A DNA stretch of 25,229 nucleotides from a virus. Each line of letters starts with the position of its first letter. Within the stretch, counting starts at the first letter, position 1. The position numbers and the translations under genes are program-made. Below are positions 2,798 to 18,638 of the stretch, one piece after another. Below the pieces are notes generated by a model that saw only the letters and a list, made by a program, of their open reading frames with translations, was not told the origin of the DNA and made no database searches. The DNA is taken from the IMG/VR virus record IMGVR_UViG_3300037102_000080, positions 1 through 25,229 of that record, one strand, 5' to 3'.

Positions 2798-2938
2798 TTA
2801 CTTCAAGCCGAAGTAAAGAGCGAGTCTCCGAAGGGCCATCTCAATCACCGACGCTTGGCTCAAGCCGAGCTTCTCGGACAGCAGGGACAGAAGGCGGTGG
2901 GCCTCTTCGCTCAGGCGGAATGACGTTGGATTCTTCAC
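2798..2938 (-). CDS. Ribbon-helix-helix protein coupled to tnpB, element 1
   Basis: The product is 46 residues from a GTG at 2938. TSFRLSEEAHRLLSLL followed by SEKLGLSQASVIEMALRRLA has the beta strand, helix, helix layout of CopG/Arc-type ribbon-helix-helix DNA-binding proteins. The homologous gene before the second tnpB (6711-6887) has an ATG at the equivalent position, which supports the start. The stop is one base from the tnpB start, so the pair is an operon. A likely role is autorepression of the RHH-tnpB promoter, which is inference. Confidence 0.75.
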   Translation of the reverse strand: MKNPTSFRLSEEAHRLLSLLSEKLGLSQASVIEMALRRLALYFGLK

Positions 2939-2944
2939 ACCTCA

Positions 2945-2973
2945 ATCGTAGTCCTCTATGCGCTACTAGTCAA
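2945..2973 (-). promoter_or_regulatory. Promoter of RHH-tnpB operon 1
   Basis: On the minus strand TTGACT (2973-2968), a 17-base spacer and TACGAT (2950-2945) lie just before the RHH gene. It aligns without gaps to the promoter of element 2, sharing AGTA.CGC after the -35 box and TAC.ATTGAG at the -10. The short inverted repeat GTAG...CTAC spans the spacer and could be an RHH operator. Confidence 0.6.
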
Positions 2974-2996
2974 GCAAGAAAGGAGCGCGCATTCCT

Positions 2997-3016
2997 CCGT
3001 CGCCTAAAGGCGACGG
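2997..3016 (-). repeat. Left-end hairpin of TnpB element 1
   Basis: A perfect 8-bp stem CCGTCGCC/GGCGACGG with a TAAA loop. The sequence is shared in part with the hairpin at the opposite end of the element (1648-1667), as expected for the subterminal palindromes recognised by TnpA in IS200/IS605 elements. Confidence 0.6.
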
Positions 3017-3033
3017 TCCCCTGCGCTTAATCT

Positions 3034-3126
3034 ATGGACACCTGCAAACGGTGCGTGAGGCCCGGCCAGTTCGTGCGCGAGGCGGTTGCCCGATGGGAAC
3101 AGCGCAAGGCGGAGGGTCAACCATGA
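3034..3126 (+). pseudogene. 3' fragment of the gene interrupted by TnpB element 1
   Basis: From ATG 3034 the frame reads MDTCKRCVRPGQFVREAV and ends at 3126 in an ATGA overlap with the next gene, giving 30 residues. The Cys pair (CKRC) and the coupling to the next gene argue that it is real coding sequence. It lies immediately beyond the left end of the TnpB element and is the likely remainder of the gene starting at 1543. It may still be translated alone as a 30-residue peptide, although no strong ribosome site is seen. Confidence 0.4.
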
Positions 3127-3380
3127 CGCAAGAACAAGGCGAGCGGTTGGCGGTCGGGGAGATCGTGCAGATCAACCCAGAGATGGATATTAACCCCATG
3201 TTCGGGGCTTGCTTGCTTGTCGTCACCGAACTGAAGTCGTGGGGTGTTATGGGATACGTCCAGGGCTTAGGCAGTGACGGCAAGATCGGGGGCCAAGCCT
3301 ACATCCGGTTGCCCTTCGATCAGATCGAGAAAACCAACGGGATGGCCGTTTGGGCTATCGGGGACGAGCCGGAAGGCTGA
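3123..3380 (+). CDS. Small beta-rich phage protein, unknown
   Basis: The product is 85 residues from ATG 3123, overlapping the previous stop (ATGA). It begins MTQEQGERLAVGEIVQINPE and continues with alternating hydrophobic residues and glycines (LLVVTELKSWGVMGYVQG), a pattern typical of small SH3-like or beta-barrel phage proteins. There is no catalytic motif. The start at 3051 of a longer frame is unsupported because the overlapping fragment at 3034-3126 uses another frame there. Confidence 0.75.
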   Translation: MTQEQGERLAVGEIVQINPEMDINPMFGACLLVVTELKSWGVMGYVQGLGSDGKIGGQAYIRLPFDQIEKTNGMAVWAIGDEPEG

Positions 3381-3389
3381 GGGGGAAGT

Positions 3390-3446
3390 ATGGCCGAAAC
3401 AAAAGAGGATTGGGTGGCGATGATTCAGGGAGTATTGGCCCATTGA
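3390..3446 (+). CDS. 18-residue small protein, unknown
   Basis: ATG 3390 is preceded by GGGGGAAGT and encodes MAETKEDWVAMIQGVLAH. It ends in a TTGA overlap with the next gene, so it may mainly couple translation. Its short length means it could be chance, but both junctions fit the operon pattern. Confidence 0.45.
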   Translation: MAETKEDWVAMIQGVLAH

Positions 3447-3664
3447 AATACGAACCCGAAGGTCGGCAGATTCCCTATCAAGTGCGGCTGCAAACCCAGG
3501 CAATGGAGGAGGCGGCTCGAAGGACGATGGCGGCATTACTGACCGCCGAAGCGAAGCGCAGGCGCAAAGCGGAGCGGTGGGCGCGGGTGGGCTGGGCGCT
3601 GTCGCTGATGGAGTTCCTGGCGCTGGCGGGGCTGGTCTGTGGGTTGTGGAAGGGGTGGTTCTAA
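3443..3664 (+). CDS. Small membrane protein with basic amphipathic N-terminal part
   Basis: The product is 73 residues from a TTG at 3443, which overlaps the previous stop as TTGA. About 45 residues of basic, Ala/Arg/Lys-rich helix precede one hydrophobic segment near residues 50-68 (WALSLMEFLALAGLVCGLW). The positive charges before the segment predict a cytoplasmic N-terminus and a single C-terminal membrane anchor. The stop overlaps the next start in TAATG. Function unknown. Confidence 0.6.
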   Translation: MKYEPEGRQIPYQVRLQTQAMEEAARRTMAALLTAEAKRRRKAERWARVGWALSLMEFLALAGLVCGLWKGWF

Positions 3665-4233
3665 TGGGCACTTATACCGACGTTTGTTCTGTCCTGAAAC
3701 CAGCCAAGCGTGGATCTGCCGAGATCAGGATCGACACCCCATCCGGCTTTGAACGGTTAAGCGGAGCACTCCACGGCCAGCCCCTCGACCGAGAGAAGTA
3801 TGCGCGGCTGCTGATTAACGGGCGCGTCATGATGACCGACGCCGAGTTTGAGCGCCTCACGAACCTTGAATTTGTCTGCAAGGCGCATGGGGATATTCTC
3901 ATTGCCGGTCTTGGTATCGGCATGATCCTCAAGCCTGCCCTAAAGAATGGGGAGAGCGTTACGGTAGTGGAGATCAATCCCGACGTGATCGCCCTCGTTG
4001 CCCCATCGTTCGATGATCCGAAACTGCGGATCGTCTCGGGCGACATAGACTCCTGGTTGCCGGAAGCGGGGCAACGCTTCGACGCCATCTACTTCGACAT
4101 TTGGGAGCATTTCAACGAAGAAACGAACGCCCACGCCACAAAACTGGGCCGGAGATTCTGTAAGTATCTGAAACCGGGCGGGTGGATGGGGTCTTGGACG
4201 CGGGCGGCTTGGAAGGCCACCAACAGGCGGTAA
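3664..4233 (+). CDS. SAM-dependent methyltransferase-fold protein, spermidine-synthase-like
   Basis: The product is 189 residues from ATG 3664 (TAATG coupling). Residues about 79-90, ILIAGLGIGMIL, form the glycine-rich motif I of class I methyltransferases. VTVVEINPDVIALV supplies the acidic residue that binds the SAM ribose; LRIVSGDIDSWL and FDAIYFDIWEHF match later motifs as seen in spermidine-synthase-like proteins. The substrate is unknown; in phages such proteins may modify DNA, protein or a small molecule. It lacks an obvious C-terminal substrate domain. Confidence 0.75.
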   Translation: MGTYTDVCSVLKPAKRGSAEIRIDTPSGFERLSGALHGQPLDREKYARLLINGRVMMTDAEFERLTNLEFVCKAHGDILIAGLGIGMILKPALKNGESVTVVEINPDVIALVAPSFDDPKLRIVSGDIDSWLPEAGQRFDAIYFDIWEHFNEETNAHATKLGRRFCKYLKPGGWMGSWTRAAWKATNRR

Positions 4234-4244
4234 GGGAGGATTGC

Positions 4245-4529
4245 ATGGTAAAACAGCAAACGATATGTGACCGATGCGGGCAGGAAAAGAAGGGCGCGAA
4301 TCACTGGTGGGAGGTGTACGGTTCGCCAGTTATTCCCGACGCGCTAGTGATAAGACCTGCGGGGCCATCGACAGCACAGCCGGGGGCCGTAGAGGTGCTG
4401 GGCGCACCAGGGGACTTCTGCTCCCAAGTGTGCGCCCTGCGAGCCATCGACGAATGGATGTCAAAGCAGATTGCAGAGGCGAAGGCGGAAGAGAAACTGT
4501 CGCAGGAAGCGGCTGAAGCCAATGCTTAA
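4245..4529 (+). CDS. Zinc-finger-like small protein
   Basis: The product is 94 residues from ATG 4245, preceded by GGGAGGA. It contains ICDRCGQEKKGANHWWEV and later DFCSQVCALRAI, so four cysteines in CxxC and CxxxC pairs could bind one zinc. A charged C-terminal helix follows (IAEAKAEEKLSQEAAEA). The end overlaps the next gene by 8 bases. The zinc site suggests nucleic-acid or protein binding; the specific role is not recognisable. Confidence 0.7.
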   Translation: MVKQQTICDRCGQEKKGANHWWEVYGSPVIPDALVIRPAGPSTAQPGAVEVLGAPGDFCSQVCALRAIDEWMSKQIAEAKAEEKLSQEAAEANA

Positions 4530-4782
4530 CAAGTCTGAGCGCATCCGCCAACTGCTTCTGGCGGGCGAGTTGGGGCCGCTCGAAATAGGGGTAATCGTCG
4601 GCACAACAGCAGCGACCGTTCGCTCTGTCAGACAGCGCATGAAACGTCCGCAGGCCATCTCTGACGTGAACGCAAGGATTGAATCCCTACGGATCGAAAT
4701 GCGCCTATTGCAGCGCGATGTCTCTGCTATCAGAAGCGACATTACGGCCATTTTCCAGAAGCTAAGGAAGACACGCCACTGA
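4522..4782 (+). CDS. Helix-turn-helix protein with C-terminal coiled coil
   Basis: The product is 86 residues from ATG 4522. Residues 4-37 (SERIRQLLLAGELGPLEIG to RSVRQRMK) form a likely helix-turn-helix: 'I.QLL..G....EI...VG.....VR..R'. Residues about 48-82 show heptad leucines and isoleucines (IESLRIEMRLLQRDVSAIRS), a probable coiled coil for oligomerisation. It is the last gene of the operon and could be a small DNA-binding regulator. Confidence 0.65.
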   Translation: MLNKSERIRQLLLAGELGPLEIGVIVGTTAATVRSVRQRMKRPQAISDVNARIESLRIEMRLLQRDVSAIRSDITAIFQKLRKTRH

Positions 4783-5050
4783 TGCGCCACGCGCCGGTTC
4801 AAGCGCCCCGGTAGCCTACTCACCACTAACCCACTGGTTCAGCCCTGGTCCCGTCTACTTGGCGAGTCGTCCAACTGGTTAAGATGCTTGACTTTGACTC
4901 AAGAGATGTAGGTTCAAGTCCTGCCTCGCCAGCCAACCTAAATCGCCCCGGTTCCACGCGCCCCGGTCGCCCCGCCCTGGTCGCGCCGGTTGACGCTCAG
5001 CGGGCGGCGCTGGCGGCGGGCCGGAATCTACGCTTCCCAAAACTTTCCTC
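4783..5050. other. Noncoding, repeat-rich DNA around the tRNA
   Basis: Apart from the tRNA, this stretch holds short GC-rich repeats and no convincing gene. Copies of GCGCCGGTTC lie at 4791-4800 and, as GCGCCGGTT, at 4983-4991. Variants CGCCCCGGTTC or GCGCCCCGGT lie at 4803, 4944 and 4958. The same motifs recur at 6940-6949 and in tandem at 7143-7172. Confidence 0.5.
4860..4935 (+). tRNA. tRNA-Gln (anticodon TTG)
   Basis: The 76 bases fold as a complete cloverleaf. The acceptor TGGCGAG pairs with CTCGCCA, followed by discriminator G and an encoded CCA. The anticodon stem CTTGA/TCAAG encloses loop CTTTGAC with anticodon TTG; the T arm GTAGG/CCTGC encloses TTCAAGT. An encoded CCA and its place among phage genes fit a phage-borne tRNA. 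Confidence 0.93.
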
Positions 5051-5079
5051 TTGACAGGCCGCTATGCAAGGTGTAACGT
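5051..5079 (+). promoter_or_regulatory. Promoter for the 5124-5548 genes
   Basis: TTGACA (5051-5056), a 17-base spacer and TAACGT (5074-5079) form a good promoter. It shares the arrangement CTTGACAG, 15 bases, GTAACGTGG with the one at 1080. An ATG at 5064 lies inside it and so is not a start. Confidence 0.6.
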
Positions 5080-5123
5080 GGGTCTATGCCACAAAGAACA
5101 GGCAGAAATGGAGGCAAATAGCC

Positions 5124-5330
5124 GTGTTGCATCTGTTAGAGGAACTGACGCCCTACCAAGAGGGGCGGCTGATGGCGGATCTGACCCGCAAGGGATACAC
5201 GTCCGAAACCGTCAACGGATATACTCCCGGCACGCTGGAGTATCAGGAATTCAACCGAGGGGTGTACGACGACGCGCAAGCGGAAGCGCACAAGGCGGCG
5301 GCGGGCATGGGCGTGGGGGTGACGGCGTGA
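5124..5330 (+). CDS. Small acidic phage protein, unknown
   Basis: The product is 68 residues from GTG 5124, nine bases after GGAGG (5110-5114). The upstream in-frame ATG at 5064 is rejected because it lies between the -35 and -10 boxes. The sequence (LEELTPYQEGRLMADLTRKG and TPGTLEYQEFNRGVYDDAQA) is predicted helical and soluble with no known motif. The stop overlaps the next start as GTGA. The end (GVGVTA) resembles the end of the micro-ORF at 19720-19788 at DNA level. Confidence 0.6.
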   Translation: MLHLLEELTPYQEGRLMADLTRKGYTSETVNGYTPGTLEYQEFNRGVYDDAQAEAHKAAAGMGVGVTA

Positions 5331-5548
5331 CGCGCATATCTTCAGCCAGTCCGGTACGCCGGGAAACCGACGTTCACTACCGGGGTAGGGCGTTGGTGGT
5401 GGAGCTTCACCCTGGCTTTTTGACCCTCAAAGAGAAGGGCAAGCGGTACAGGGTGAGCGTGGGCTACGACGCCATTCTCTCGCTGGGTTTCAAACTGTTA
5501 GCGCGGGCCGAAGCCGCAGAGAAGAAGAGCAAAGGAGGCAAGCGATGA
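5327..5548 (+). CDS. Small basic beta-rich protein, unknown
   Basis: The product is 73 residues from GTG 5327 (GTGA coupling). HYRGRALVVELHPGFLTLKE followed by RYRVSVGYDAILSLGFKLLA suggests a small beta-sheet unit and a helix, ending in a Lys-rich tail (EKKSKGGKR) that also encodes an AAAGGAGG ribosome site. The stop sits right at the edge of TnpB element 2. The gene may originally have been longer or been followed by another gene that the element interrupted. Confidence 0.65.
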   Translation: MTRISSASPVRRETDVHYRGRALVVELHPGFLTLKEKGKRYRVSVGYDAILSLGFKLLARAEAAEKKSKGGKR

Positions 5549-5558
5549 TCCGTTTCCC

Positions 5559-5574
5559 GTCGCTGACAAGCGAC
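5559..5574 (-). repeat. Right-end hairpin of TnpB element 2
   Basis: GTCGCT (5559-5564) and AGCGAC (5569-5574) enclose GACA. It lies about 30 bases beyond the tnpB stop, where the 3' end of the guide RNA scaffold is expected. In the tnpB strand the hairpin is followed by GG, as at element 1. The guide would be read from host DNA just left of this. Confidence 0.5.
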
Positions 5575-5602
5575 CAGCACGCGTGATGTATCGCCTTTGA
5601 CT

Positions 5603-6745
5603 TCAGCGACTTCCAAGGCCATGCAGAGCAATCTCCACATTACGGCCTTCAGGTGGCATCCCCACCTGTCCACGGGCAAGGATGACTTGCGCCGCAGCGT
5701 GATCTCTATGCGCGGTGTACCCGCAGGGGCAGACGTGCTGCCGCTGGCTTAGGATCTTTTTCGCTACGGCCCCACAAGAGGGACACGTTTGAGAAGTGTA
5801 CGCCGCATTAACTTCGACTACCTCAACCCCGGCCCATTCTGCCTTGGATTTAAGGATATTCAGGAAGCTGCCCCAGCCAGCGTCCAGAACAGCGCGGGCA
5901 AGCCGGTGATTCTTGGACATCCCAGAGATGTTCAAGCTCTCCACCGCGATCAACCCGTACTTGTCTACCAACTTTCGAGCAATCTTATGATGCTGGTCGC
6001 ACCTGTAGTTTGCAACCGAGGCGTGTGTGGCAATGACAGCACGCCGAGCGTTGCGTCGTCCTCTACCGCCCTTATTCCTTCGATCCATGCGCCTCTGCTG
6101 GACTCGCAGTTTGCGGAGCTTCCACTTGAGCGGCTGGAGGGGCGCTATGTGCTCTCCATCCGAAGTTGTCAGGAAGCTCTCGATTCCCAAGTCAATCCCG
6201 ACGGCGGCAGTATTTTTATTTTCAACTGCCACTTCGCCAAGATCGCAGACAATCACGACATACCACTTCCCGGCTTCGCGCTTTACCGTGATCGTCTTGT
6301 GCTTTCCTTCAGTGGGACGGTGCAGCCGCACGCGGACCAACCCGACGTGCTGCAAGCGAAGTTTATTCCCGATCAGCCTAACACCGTGCGGCACTTGGGG
6401 GTAGGTAAAGCTATCGAATCGGTCTCTGCTCTTAAACCTCGGGTATCCGGGCTTTTCTCCGGCCTTACAACGCCTAAAAAAAGCAGCAAAGGTGGTATCC
6501 AGACGGTTCATCGTGGCCTGAGCGCTTTGCGCGTTGAGACGCGCAAACCAAGGATTGATTTTATTCTCCCTTGCGAACCATTTGGCTTGATCGCGGTACT
6601 TGATCGACTTCTTTTCGATTTCGTAGGCCGTTTTTCGCTGTGCAAGGCACTGGTTATAGAGACGCCTGTGTGTCTCCAGCGTGATCTCCAACTCCCGCGT
6701 CTGGTTGACGTTAGGATAGAGGCGGTACTTGTACGCTTTGTACAT
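5603..6745 (-). CDS. tnpB: TnpB RNA-guided nuclease, element 2
   Basis: This 380-residue protein begins MYKAYKYRLYPNVNQT. The RuvC triad is intact: D185 in VGIDLGIESF, E269 in GLIAVESLN and D348 in TAHRDHAAAQVIL. The zinc finger has C321/C324 (CPSC) and C339/C341 (CPC), so the second knuckle has one residue fewer than CxxC; in element 1 it is the first knuckle that is short. The two TnpBs are clearly related but diverged over their whole length, so they are not a recent duplication. The start overlaps the end of the RHH gene by 35 bases. Confidence 0.9.
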   Translation of the reverse strand: MYKAYKYRLYPNVNQTRELEITLETHRRLYNQCLAQRKTAYEIEKKSIKYRDQAKWFARENKINPWFARLNAQSAQATMNRLDTTFAAFFRRCKAGEKPGYPRFKSRDRFDSFTYPQVPHGVRLIGNKLRLQHVGLVRVRLHRPTEGKHKTITVKREAGKWYVVIVCDLGEVAVENKNTAAVGIDLGIESFLTTSDGEHIAPLQPLKWKLRKLRVQQRRMDRRNKGGRGRRNARRAVIATHASVANYRCDQHHKIARKLVDKYGLIAVESLNISGMSKNHRLARAVLDAGWGSFLNILKSKAEWAGVEVVEVNAAYTSQTCPSCGAVAKKILSQRQHVCPCGYTAHRDHAAAQVILARGQVGMPPEGRNVEIALHGLGSR

Positions 6746-6887
6746 CTGCCTTCACGTTGTAGCGTTCGGCCAGCAACCGCACGGCCATCTCAATCACAGA
6801 GGCTTGGCTCAAGCCTAGTTTCTCGCCAAGCACCACGAGGAGCCGCAGGCAGTTCTCACTCAGGCGGAATGCGGTTGGCTTCTTCAT
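6711..6887 (-). CDS. Ribbon-helix-helix protein coupled to tnpB, element 2
   Basis: The product is 58 residues from ATG 6887. TAFRLSENCLRLLVVLG followed by EKLGLSQASVIEMAVRLLAE aligns with the protein at 2798-2938: both share FRLSE, RLL, EKLGLSQASVIEMA and a final LA. The layout is that of a CopG/Arc-type DNA-binding protein. Its last 11 codons overlap the tnpB start in another frame, so translation is coupled. Repeated association with TnpB suggests regulation of tnpB expression or a partner role. Confidence 0.75.
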   Translation of the reverse strand: MKKPTAFRLSENCLRLLVVLGEKLGLSQASVIEMAVRLLAERYNVKADVQSVQVPPLS

Positions 6888-6893
6888 ATCTCA

Positions 6894-6922
6894 ATAGTAA
6901 CGCAAATCGCGTTACTTGTAAA
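6894..6922 (-). promoter_or_regulatory. Promoter and likely operator of RHH-tnpB operon 2
   Basis: On the minus strand TTTACA (6922-6917), a 17-base spacer and TACTAT (6899-6894) precede the RHH gene. A perfect inverted repeat AGTAACGC/GCGTTACT (6896-6903 and 6909-6916) fills the spacer and overlaps the -10 box. That is where a repressor such as the RHH protein would bind. The repeat could instead be the element's left-end hairpin. Confidence 0.6.
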
Positions 6923-6956
6923 CAACCTAAGCCAAGCCCGCGCCGGTTCACGCAGA

Positions 6957-6984
6957 AAGCCCCGGTCACTGATCGGGGCTTTTT
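6957..6984 (+). terminator. Rho-independent terminator
   Basis: AGCCCCG and CGGGGCT form a 7-bp GC-rich stem with a 9-base loop, followed by a T-run (GCTTTTTC). The run of A before the hairpin makes it usable on the other strand too. It lies directly before the palindrome at 6987. Confidence 0.75.
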
Positions 6985-6986
6985 CG

Positions 6987-7002
6987 TGTCTGGATACAGA
7001 CA
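6987..7002 (+). repeat. 16-bp palindrome, copy 2
   Basis: TGTCTGGATACAGACA, identical to 1249-1264. It follows a terminator at once, as copy 1 follows a hairpin. Downstream are AAAGGAGAG, a possible GTG start at 7014 and then another terminator at 7069. Confidence 0.8.
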
Positions 7003-7013
7003 AAGGAGAGAAC

Positions 7014-7043
7014 GTGAAAGGAGGTGGAGTTATGCACAACTAG
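7014..7043 (+). CDS. Possible 9-residue leader peptide
   Basis: GTG 7014 follows AAAGGAGAG at good spacing and reads VKGGGVMHN before TAG at 7041. It lies between palindrome copy 2 and the terminator at 7069-7105, an arrangement like an attenuator leader. There is no structural gene downstream on this strand, so it may be a decayed unit. Confidence 0.2.
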   Translation: MKGGGVMHN

Positions 7044-7068
7044 CCGAACGCCCTGGTAGCAACAAACG

Positions 7069-7105
7069 GCCCCGGTTCCCTGCAAAGGGAGCCGGGGTTT
7101 CTTTT
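7069..7105 (+). terminator. Rho-independent terminator
   Basis: CCCCGG.TCCCT pairs with AGGGA.CCGGGG around a short loop, followed by TTTCTTTT. Together with 6957-6984 and 7183-7214 it makes three terminators within 260 bases, insulating the left genes from the leftward operon. Confidence 0.75.
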
Positions 7106-7142
7106 GCGCCCTGGTAGCAGAGAGCGGGAGGGCGGGCAGACA

Positions 7143-7172
7143 GCGCCGGTTCGCGCCGGTTCGCGCCGGTTC
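7143..7172. repeat. Three perfect tandem copies of GCGCCGGTTC
   Basis: The 10-bp unit GCGCCGGTTC is repeated at 7143, 7153 and 7163. Single copies lie at 4791-4800 and 6940-6949 and a 9-base copy at 4983-4991, all in noncoding DNA. They could be protein-binding sites or remnants of a common intergenic element. Confidence 0.7.
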
Positions 7173-7182
7173 AAGCGGGCAC

Positions 7183-7947: not shown

Positions 7948-8002
7948 CGGACCTCCAAACGCTTTGAGTGGGCTAGACTTGGGACTAGCCCCATGCGCGT
8001 TA

Positions 8003-8024
8003 GATCGGGCCGCAAGGCCCGATC
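8003..8024 (-). repeat. Intercistronic hairpin with GCAA loop
   Basis: A perfect 9-bp stem GATCGGGCC/GGCCCGATC closes a GCAA loop (TTGC on the transcribed strand). It lies in the 86-base gap between the metallopeptidase gene and the 7627-7947 gene. There is no T-run, so it is more likely to stabilise or process mRNA than to terminate it. A second inverted repeat (GGCTAG/CTAGCC) follows at about 7970-7989. Confidence 0.5.
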
Positions 8025-8033
8025 CCCTCCGCA

Positions 8034-17311: not shown

Positions 17312-18638
17312 CTCGAAGATTGAATGGACGAGGCACACATTTAACGCTTGGGTTGGCTGTTCCAAGGTAAGCGCGGGTTGTACCCGATGTTATGCCGAAT
17401 CGCTGGCAAAGCGCACCGGATTGGCGATTTGGGGTGATTCCGGTACGCGGCATGTCACCTCAGACGCCTATTGGCAGGAGCCATATAAATGGGCAACCGC
17501 TGCGAGCATGTTTGGCGAGAGGCATCGCGTATTCTGCAATTCGCTAGCGGATGTGTTCGAGGATCGACCGGACCTTTCCGCGCCCCGTCATCGACTCTGG
17601 CGATTGATTCTCGACACACGTCATTCGCTTGATTGGTTGCTGCTGACGAAGCGGCCCGAGAACTTCAACATGATACCGCTCTCATTGGCGGATTCAGTCT
17701 GGCTCGGCGTCTCCGTGGAGGACCAGGCGACAGCCGACGAGCGGATTCCGCTGCTGCTGAAGACACCGGCGGCGGTTCGGTTTGTGAGTTGCGAACCCTT
17801 GATTTCCCCTGTCGATGTGTCACAATATATCAGAGGTTACAAACCGTATGAAGGAAGCGGAGCGATCATTTTTAGCGCTGATGCAGATCGGTGTCTTTTC
17901 GATGGAGGCGGACGGCCAGATATGGAGACATCGCAGGCTAGTGGGGGGGAGCCACGTCGGAACACCTCCAGCGTGGAGGGACATCGCGAGAGTTCGGGCG
18001 GAAAAGTCAACGAGCAACGGATACCCCACGATCTTCTTCAACGACGGAGTGGACGGGAAGCGAAAGAAGGTGTGGGCGCACCGAATCGTTTGGATGATAG
18101 CGAACAGATCGGATATTGCGCCGGGCCTGGAAATCAACCACAAGGACGGCATACGGAAGAACACATCGCCCTCGAACCTGGAAACAGTAACCCACTCACA
18201 GAACATGATTCACGGTTGTCGGGTGCTGGGGAGGAAAGGGAAGTCCGCATCCGGCGAGACCAATCCGGCGGCCCGATTGCGGGTGAGCGATGTCTTACAA
18301 ATCAGGGCGCTTGCGGGCAAGATACCGCAGTCGCAGATGGCTGCTATGTTCCACGTGAACCAGGGGACAATTTCAGCGGTCATAACGAAGAAGTCATGGG
18401 CGCATCTGGAATCTCGCTGATAATCGTCGGTTGCGAGAGCGGGCCGGGGGCGCGGCCGATGGATGAGAACTGGGTGCGCTCAATCCGCGATCAGTGCGTG
18501 GACACCGACGTGCCGTTCTTCTACAAGCAACGGCTGGAGAATGGCCACAAAGTATCGCTGCCCCTACTCGATGGTCAGCAGTGGGCACAGTTCCCGGAGG
18601 CGCCCGATGCCAAGGAGGGCGAGGAGGTAAGCGAATGA
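17301..18638 (+). CDS. DUF5131 (Gp37/Gp68) family protein with a 200-codon insertion
   Basis: The product is 445 residues if read through, from ATG 17301 with AAGGAG upstream. Residues 1-177 match DUF5131: NSKIEWTRHTFNAWVGCSKV, C20, C27 and C30 (CX6CX2C), then VFCNSLADVFE, LDWLLLTKRPENF, LGVSVEDQ and RFVSCEPLISPVD. The usual next motif, IIVGCESGPGARPMDENWVR, appears only at about residue 370. Between them lie some 195 low-complexity residues in the frame of a nested HNH gene. Without the insertion the protein would be about 255 residues, normal for the family. Whether the fused form folds is unknown. The biochemical role of DUF5131 is not known. Confidence 0.8.
   Translation: MGSNSKIEWTRHTFNAWVGCSKVSAGCTRCYAESLAKRTGLAIWGDSGTRHVTSDAYWQEPYKWATAASMFGERHRVFCNSLADVFEDRPDLSAPRHRLWRLILDTRHSLDWLLLTKRPENFNMIPLSLADSVWLGVSVEDQATADERIPLLLKTPAAVRFVSCEPLISPVDVSQYIRGYKPYEGSGAIIFSADADRCLFDGGGRPDMETSQASGGEPRRNTSSVEGHRESSGGKVNEQRIPHDLLQRRSGREAKEGVGAPNRLDDSEQIGYCAGPGNQPQGRHTEEHIALEPGNSNPLTEHDSRLSGAGEEREVRIRRDQSGGPIAGERCLTNQGACGQDTAVADGCYVPREPGDNFSGHNEEVMGASGISLIIVGCESGPGARPMDENWVRSIRDQCVDTDVPFFYKQRLENGHKVSLPLLDGQQWAQFPEAPDAKEGEEVSE
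17848..18420 (+). CDS. HNH homing-type endonuclease nested inside the DUF5131 gene
   Basis: The product is 190 residues from ATG 17848, in the +1 frame relative to DUF5131, with AGAGG upstream; an ATG at 17815 is an alternative. The HNH core is VWAHRIVWMI (H78), LEINHKDGIRKNTSPSNLET with N97, H98 and N110, the layout of phage HNH nucleases. The C-terminal part (GETNPAARLRVSDVLQIRAL, then QSQMAAMFHVNQGTISAV) is a helix-turn-helix that would read target DNA. The stop overlaps the resumed DUF5131 reading. It likely spreads by cutting DUF5131 genes that lack it. Confidence 0.85.
   Translation: MKEAERSFLALMQIGVFSMEADGQIWRHRRLVGGSHVGTPPAWRDIARVRAEKSTSNGYPTIFFNDGVDGKRKKVWAHRIVWMIANRSDIAPGLEINHKDGIRKNTSPSNLETVTHSQNMIHGCRVLGRKGKSASGETNPAARLRVSDVLQIRALAGKIPQSQMAAMFHVNQGTISAVITKKSWAHLESR

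Follow-up and report, generated by a model that had tools for sequence, protein, structure and literature searches.

TnpB is a very abundant prokaryotic nuclease from which Cas12 descended, and how harm to its carriers is avoided is little understood. The described systems closest to the locus reported here are the IS200/IS605 elements, which carry tnpA and tnpB, and the IS1341-type elements, which lack tnpA. A role like that of a homing endonuclease has been ascribed to TnpB (PMC10278001), which is also reported to drive insertion sequences in plasmids (PMC11870625). Two tnpB elements were found in a 25,229-nucleotide stretch of viral DNA (positions 1 to 25,229 of IMG/VR record IMGVR_UViG_3300037102_000080); this whole stretch is referred to as the window. 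The window shares with both known types a TnpB with intact RuvC residues, left-end and right-end hairpins, and an omega-RNA hairpin at the 3' end of tnpB. It differs from both in that a gene for a small ribbon-helix-helix (RHH) protein occupies the place of tnpA and shares the operon of tnpB. Judging from the sequence, this protein is probably a CopG/Arc-type autorepressor that has replaced tnpA and would restrain TnpB, itself in the role of a homing endonuclease.

Two RHH-tnpB operons in the window

RHH1 (2798-2938, (-) strand, GTG start) and RHH2 (6711-6887, (-) strand, ATG start) encode CopG-like RHH proteins of 46 and 58 amino acids, as assigned by profile match, alignment and model. Each is directly upstream of a gene for an IS200/IS605-type RNA-guided nuclease: tnpB1 (1651-2796, (-) strand, 381 amino acids) and tnpB2 (5603-6745, (-) strand, 380 amino acids). 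The ATG codon of tnpB1 (2796) is one base past the stop codon of RHH1, and the end of RHH2 overlaps the start of tnpB2 (6745) by 35 bases. The two TnpBs are 42% identical across 372 residues, compared with 65% across 46 residues for the two RHH proteins (E 4e-18 in pairwise alignment), which have EKLGLSQASVIEMA in common. All of this agrees with a preliminary description of this DNA, which had reported the two small frames, their coupling to tnpB and the divergence of the TnpBs.

The Pfam models RHH_1/RHH_3 matched RHH1 and RHH2 with E-values of 0.002 and 0.009, both just under the gathering cut-off; close relatives (L010, L037, L039, L040) are over it. In the AlphaFold model, an extended N-terminus is followed by two helices (11-24 and 28-42), with a predicted local distance difference test score (pLDDT) of 85. 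CopG was the top match of Foldseek against the PDB (32% identity, E 0.2, probability 0.99), and the other top matches were RHH repressors and antitoxins (E 0.2 and more, probability up to 0.99); for a protein this small, E-values in this range are not out of the ordinary. Both proteins are therefore predicted to have the RHH fold and to be CopG-like. RHH1 stops where the RHH domain stops and has no toxin-binding tail; within the family, C-terminal tails are not conserved. Both elements are also present on a 96-kb phage contig (IMGVR_UViG_3300048503_000021).

Both TnpBs match the guided_TnpB model (NF040570) far over its cut-off and align along their length to solved TnpBs, with the three acidic residues of RuvC (D, E, and D) intact. 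By these residues both seem to be catalytically intact, and RNA-guided cleavage is predicted. The left end (LE) of element 1 (2989-3027, (-) strand) contains the hairpin CCGTCGCC-TTTA-GGCGACGG at 2997-3016. It resembles, at 77-84% over 55-65 nt, the LEs of tnpA-bearing elements (L069, L016, L194, L065, L153) and that of an RHH-bearing phage element (L230). The right end (RE; 1640-1667, (-) strand) contains the omega-RNA 3' hairpin CCGTCTGC-TTTA-GCTGACGG (1667-1648) and matches the REs of related tnpB elements at 76-95%. Since both ends match those of relatives, RHH1 lies inside the element. The guide of element 1 would start directly past the RE hairpin, within the interrupted phage frame beginning at 1543. 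In element 2, a probable RE hairpin (TCGC...GCGA; 5591-5609, (-) strand), weaker than that of element 1, was read from the sequence; this end matches only that of locus L012 (76% over 72 nt), and a phage frame beginning at 5548 (MIRFPSLTSDQHA) is interrupted there. No empty site was obtained for either element, as the relatives of a flanking gene were too diverged. No tnpA adjoins either tnpB of the window, and the Y1 transposase gene by which autonomous IS200/IS605 elements are recognised is thus missing from both.

Repeated replacement of tnpA by RHH genes

The surroundings of tnpBs related to those of the window were surveyed in genomes (80 loci) and viral contigs. Among 153 non-redundant loci, tnpA abutted tnpB in 45 and lay elsewhere upstream in 6, an RHH gene was present in 14, and 88 had neither. 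As the survey was seeded with window-related TnpBs, the 9% (14/153) with RHH is no rate for tnpBs at large. The RHH profile matched 13 of the 157 open reading frames (ORFs) abutting tnpB, none of 2,072 other same-strand small ORFs, and 1 of 2,410 on the opposite strand. Some seeds of this profile came from the surveyed loci themselves; a profile from RHHs unlinked to any intact tnpB gave the same enrichment picture with weaker scores.

RHH genes abut tnpB in Bacillota (L068; TacA1/HicB over the cut-off), in Streptomyces (L119 and L124; HicB over the cut-off), and in a proteobacterial metagenome-assembled genome (MAG) (L126; called by family profile and alignment only). The same arrangement is found in viral contigs, with RHH_1 over the cut-off (L182, L228, L230, L234/L236), with the Streptomyces-type RHH (HicB; L235, L251/L254), with an Arc-type RHH under the cut-off (L204), or with an RHH called by profile only (L216). 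Several unrelated RHH lineages (HicB-RHH, TacA1, CopG, and Arc types) occupy the same place before tnpB. The frame upstream of tnpB in L188 was considered and rejected, as it is not an RHH. Around the genomes of L126 and L068, groups with few genomes, no further RHH copies were found.

The RHH gene and tnpA share one slot, from the left end to tnpB, and never occur together in the surveyed loci. The exchange is seen directly in genome G008, where the TnpBs of an RHH-bearing locus (L126) and a tnpA-bearing locus (L153) are 85% identical. Their left ends match at 77% over 60 nt, and the match across tnpB begins approximately 20 nt ahead of its start codon; the sole differing stretch, between LE and tnpB, contains RHH in one and tnpA in the other. 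The same exchange was observed between L119 and L134, with 90% identical DNA across tnpB, and between L124 and L139. Among the 15 TnpBs nearest to that of L119, 4 have RHH, 10 have tnpA, 1 has neither, and none has both.

Phylogeny leads to the same picture. When 26 actinobacterial tnpBs are placed on a tree, the RHH and tnpA states are interleaved, with 8 changes for 8 RHH copies, at least 5 of which are forced by well-supported branches; in a wide FastTree, 14 changes are needed for 14 RHH tips. Replacement of tnpA by RHH has thus been one-for-one and repeated. Each of the six RHH homologues found in Streptomyces lies directly upstream of a tnpB, and purifying selection acts on the Streptomyces-type RHH, with a ratio of nonsynonymous to synonymous rates (dN/dS) of 0.07-0.35.

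Two observations on the slot should be added. L012, whose tnpB is 65% identical to tnpB2, encodes a 48-residue zinc-finger-like protein (1354-1500; C2H2/C2HC-like, under the Pfam cut-off) ending one base before tnpB, which may be a further example of a small DNA-binding protein at this position. Genome G008, a 6-Mb MAG (L152-L174), contains 23 or more tnpB copies (E < 1e-60), of which only one has an RHH.

Candidate operators and proposed control of selfish nucleases

The promoter of RHH1-tnpB1 (2945-2973, (-) strand) has a -35 box TTGACT (2973-2968) and a -10 box TACGAT (2950-2945), with 6 nt to the GTG codon. That of RHH2-tnpB2 (6894-6922, (-) strand) has TTTACA (6922-6917) and TACTAT (6899-6894), with 6 nt to the ATG codon. 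As noticed earlier, the two can be aligned without gaps from the -35 box to the start codon. The RHH2 promoter contains a perfect palindrome, GTAACGC-N5-GCGTTAC (6915-6897), and the RHH1 promoter an operator-like imperfect one, GTAGCGC-N5-GGACTAC (2966-2948). Ahead of the start codon, members of the close family have a -35 box and then the palindrome RTAnCRC-N5-GYGnTAY, whose right half is overlapped by the -10 box. A joint test singles out one register, with a gap of 5 and position -9 as the end of the right half, that gives 41 of 56 half-site matches, whereas shuffled controls gave at most 33 (0 of 500 reached 41), or 32 when only the -35/-10 spacer was shuffled. This conserved stretch is best read as a putative operator.

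The pattern RTANCGCN5GCGNTACNATN6ATG occurs four times across all viral contigs: at the three RHH starts from which it was derived and at one other place (L061), which was judged a chance site. On the 96-kb phage contig, the sole zero-mismatch operator is that of RHH2; that of RHH1 has two mismatches to the family pattern, and the remaining two-mismatch sites are about as many as in the control. With the RHH-tnpB promoters as the best matches on this contig, the RHH protein would be a local regulator, and RHH1 and RHH2 could cross-regulate each other. Other palindromes are found over or beside the -10 box of unrelated RHH-tnpB loci (L068, with a 12-bp half, L182, L126, and L234). The -10 box is 6-7 nt ahead of the start codon in 18 of 21 RHH genes, which suggests a leaderless mRNA. 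The same spacing is present in 25 of 41 same-slot tnpA genes, against 2.6 expected; it seems to be a property of the slot, and leaderless transcription was dropped as a hallmark of RHH.

In the proposed mechanism, RHH dimers would bind the palindrome over the core promoter and block it, so as to limit the RHH-tnpB transcript by negative autoregulation. Repression would hold down the guide RNA as well as TnpB, because this mRNA can also be the source from which the omega-RNA is cut. The RHH gene belongs to an IS200/IS605-type element and takes the position, after the left-end hairpin and before tnpB, that tnpA has in relatives. Such an element would be unable to transpose by itself and might persist as an RNA-guided homing element. 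Autoregulation would set the nuclease dose, with a short-lived peak after arrival in a new DNA molecule and a low steady level later; in other words, a delayed repressor might permit cutting at first and curb it afterwards. A conserved RHH-tnpB operon whose small protein controls tnpB or guide RNA expression had been proposed in the preliminary description. Recurrence, enrichment at the start of tnpB, slot, CopG-like fold, operator-like palindrome, purifying selection and intact nuclease residues all support such control, in a form broader than one RHH family, and we infer repression from them.

Several points weigh against this interpretation. The RHH1 operator is imperfect, with 5 of 7 half-site matches; the RHH-tnpB promoters of L119, L204, L228, and L251 contain no palindrome significant by itself; and no left end could be recognised for element 2. 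Furthermore, of nine non-redundant close relatives, the two of the window included, only these two directly precede tnpB. The preliminary description had named RHH homologues lying mostly away from tnpB as a finding that would refute its proposal; for the close family this is partly the case.

The other close relatives precede homing-endonuclease genes in four cases (three GIY-YIG and one HNH) and other genes in three. In a 43-kb phage, two of them (L004, L037) are directly upstream of GIY-YIG/NUMOD3 homing endonucleases with a four-base ATGA overlap; in another phage (L005), one small frame lies between the RHH gene and a GIY-YIG/NUMOD3 gene; and in L039 an HNH-type gene follows. Other genes follow on a Sulfuricystis plasmid (L006) and in L010 and L040, and include genes for signal-peptide-like proteins (L006, L010). 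The family is rare, being mostly from metagenomic phages and one plasmid. No relatives were found when the window RHH alignment was scanned against the genome contigs, or by tblastn of the annotated phage collection. Because close relatives precede GIY-YIG and HNH genes, the RHH subfamily of the window appears to regulate selfish nuclease genes in a general way, and not TnpB alone.

Two further cases of selfish DNA were observed. At the end of an FtsK-like gene in L039 (2461-4800), as read from the sequence, selfish DNA is nested: an RHH-HNH pair is followed by an IS200/IS605-type element with hairpins at both ends, which contains an RHH unlike the first (MSEEFTTIKVW...), an HNH gene, and a tnpB remnant that a third HNH-type gene interrupts. 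In the window, an HNH-like homing-endonuclease frame (17815-18420, (+) strand) lies inside a Gp37/Gp68-like (DUF5131-type) phage gene (17277-18638, (+) strand), whose frame stays open across it; this looks like an inserted homing gene, and no group I intron was detected by Rfam.

An antitoxin-like partnership, in which RHH would bind and inhibit the TnpB protein or ribonucleoprotein, with autoregulation as a by-product and RHH loss unleashing TnpB, appears unlikely. The gene order, with a small RHH first that overlaps or abuts its effector, is that of type II toxin-antitoxin modules, and several RHHs match the Pfam antitoxin families TacA1, HicB, and FitA-like. However, RHH1 consists of the DNA-binding domain only, no C-terminal tails are conserved, and the same RHH family stands ahead of GIY-YIG and HNH genes. 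TnpBs that are related to each other are found with unrelated RHHs, and TnpBs nearly identical to the RHH-linked ones stand beside tnpA with no RHH; this means that TnpB needs no RHH partner. The earlier suggestion that the small protein assists TnpB directly finds no support either, RHH1 being a bare 46-residue domain.

It is also quite improbable that a common small mobile gene merely landed before tnpB and lent its promoter, with no regulatory role in the element. Window-type RHHs do precede unrelated genes, for instance those of L006 and L010, but the concentration of RHH genes right at the start of tnpB, with almost none elsewhere in the loci, the recurrence of different RHH families there, the selection on RHH, and the pairing with tnpB of all six Streptomyces homologues found oppose this. 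Even then, tnpB would still sit under the regulated promoter of RHH. A role in transposition or end recognition, in which RHH would bind the ends like relaxosome RHHs such as NikA and partly replace tnpA, seems highly improbable: the use of the tnpA slot, the kept left and right ends and weak NikA-like Pfam matches in some RHHs would fit it, but the conserved palindrome sits in the promoter and not in the end hairpins, 46 residues leave no room for catalytic residues, and the same family precedes homing genes outside IS200/IS605 elements.

With an autorepressor in the slot of tnpA, restraint of TnpB becomes a directly testable question, and the persistence of tnpA-less tnpB elements would be in part explained. 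The RHH protein could provide a compact genome-editing nuclease with a natural switch, and the link to GIY-YIG and HNH genes points to a common control logic for phage selfish nucleases. To a wider view we give an even chance: IS200/IS605-type elements would exist in two interchangeable states, a transposing one (tnpA-tnpB) and a regulated homing one, in which an RHH autorepressor, exchanged for the tnpA cassette repeatedly and in phages and bacteria alike, meters an active TnpB; the same RHH module would govern GIY-YIG and HNH homing genes, as a general module of repressor plus selfish nuclease.

Other features of the window are as follows. A tRNA gene (4860-4932, (+) strand) lies between the two tnpB elements. 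Several copies of an intergenic motif resembling CGCGCCGGTTCACGC are near terminator-like hairpins at 4790-5003 and 6933-7176. A type-P5 twister ribozyme was matched at 7973-8032 ((-) strand; 44.5 bits, E 7.5e-7) in an E-value search of the first 9 kb; this match was absent from a faster gathering-threshold search of the whole window.

Comparison with known systems

No report of an RHH-TnpB pairing was found in the open-access literature, a coverage that leaves out most subscription journals and undeposited preprints and does not establish priority; we know of no such RHH accessory of IS200/IS605 elements. CopG of plasmid pMV158/pLS1 and Arc of phage P22 resemble the RHHs of the window in length (45-53 residues), fold, an operator palindrome over the promoter, and a first position in the operon. 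In contrast to these, the RHH of the window would control a selfish nuclease and not plasmid replication or a phage switch, and its DNA binding is predicted.

Type II toxin-antitoxin modules with an RHH antitoxin likewise have a small RHH gene first, overlapping the effector, and a palindrome over the promoter. Here, however, the effector is an RNA-guided nuclease that is also found without RHH, and RHH1 is without a toxin-binding tail; as it ends with the RHH domain and tails vary in the family, assignment to this class was set aside. TldR proteins, the TnpB-like nuclease-dead repressors, are also TnpB relatives in phages tied to transcription control. Unlike them, the TnpBs of the window keep their catalytic residues, and regulation would fall to a second protein, the RHH; with RuvC D-E-D kept in both TnpBs, this reading was set aside as well. 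Aca proteins are small DNA-binding autorepressors, mainly of the helix-turn-helix type, in the operon of a phage-carried effector (anti-CRISPR), whereas the regulator in the window is an RHH, encoded first, and goes with nucleases.

The RHH-tnpB elements are classed among the tnpA-less IS200/IS605-type elements. Their parts, an IS200/IS605-type TnpB and a CopG/Arc-type repressor, are known; what is new is the recurrent RHH in the place of tnpA, exchangeable with it.

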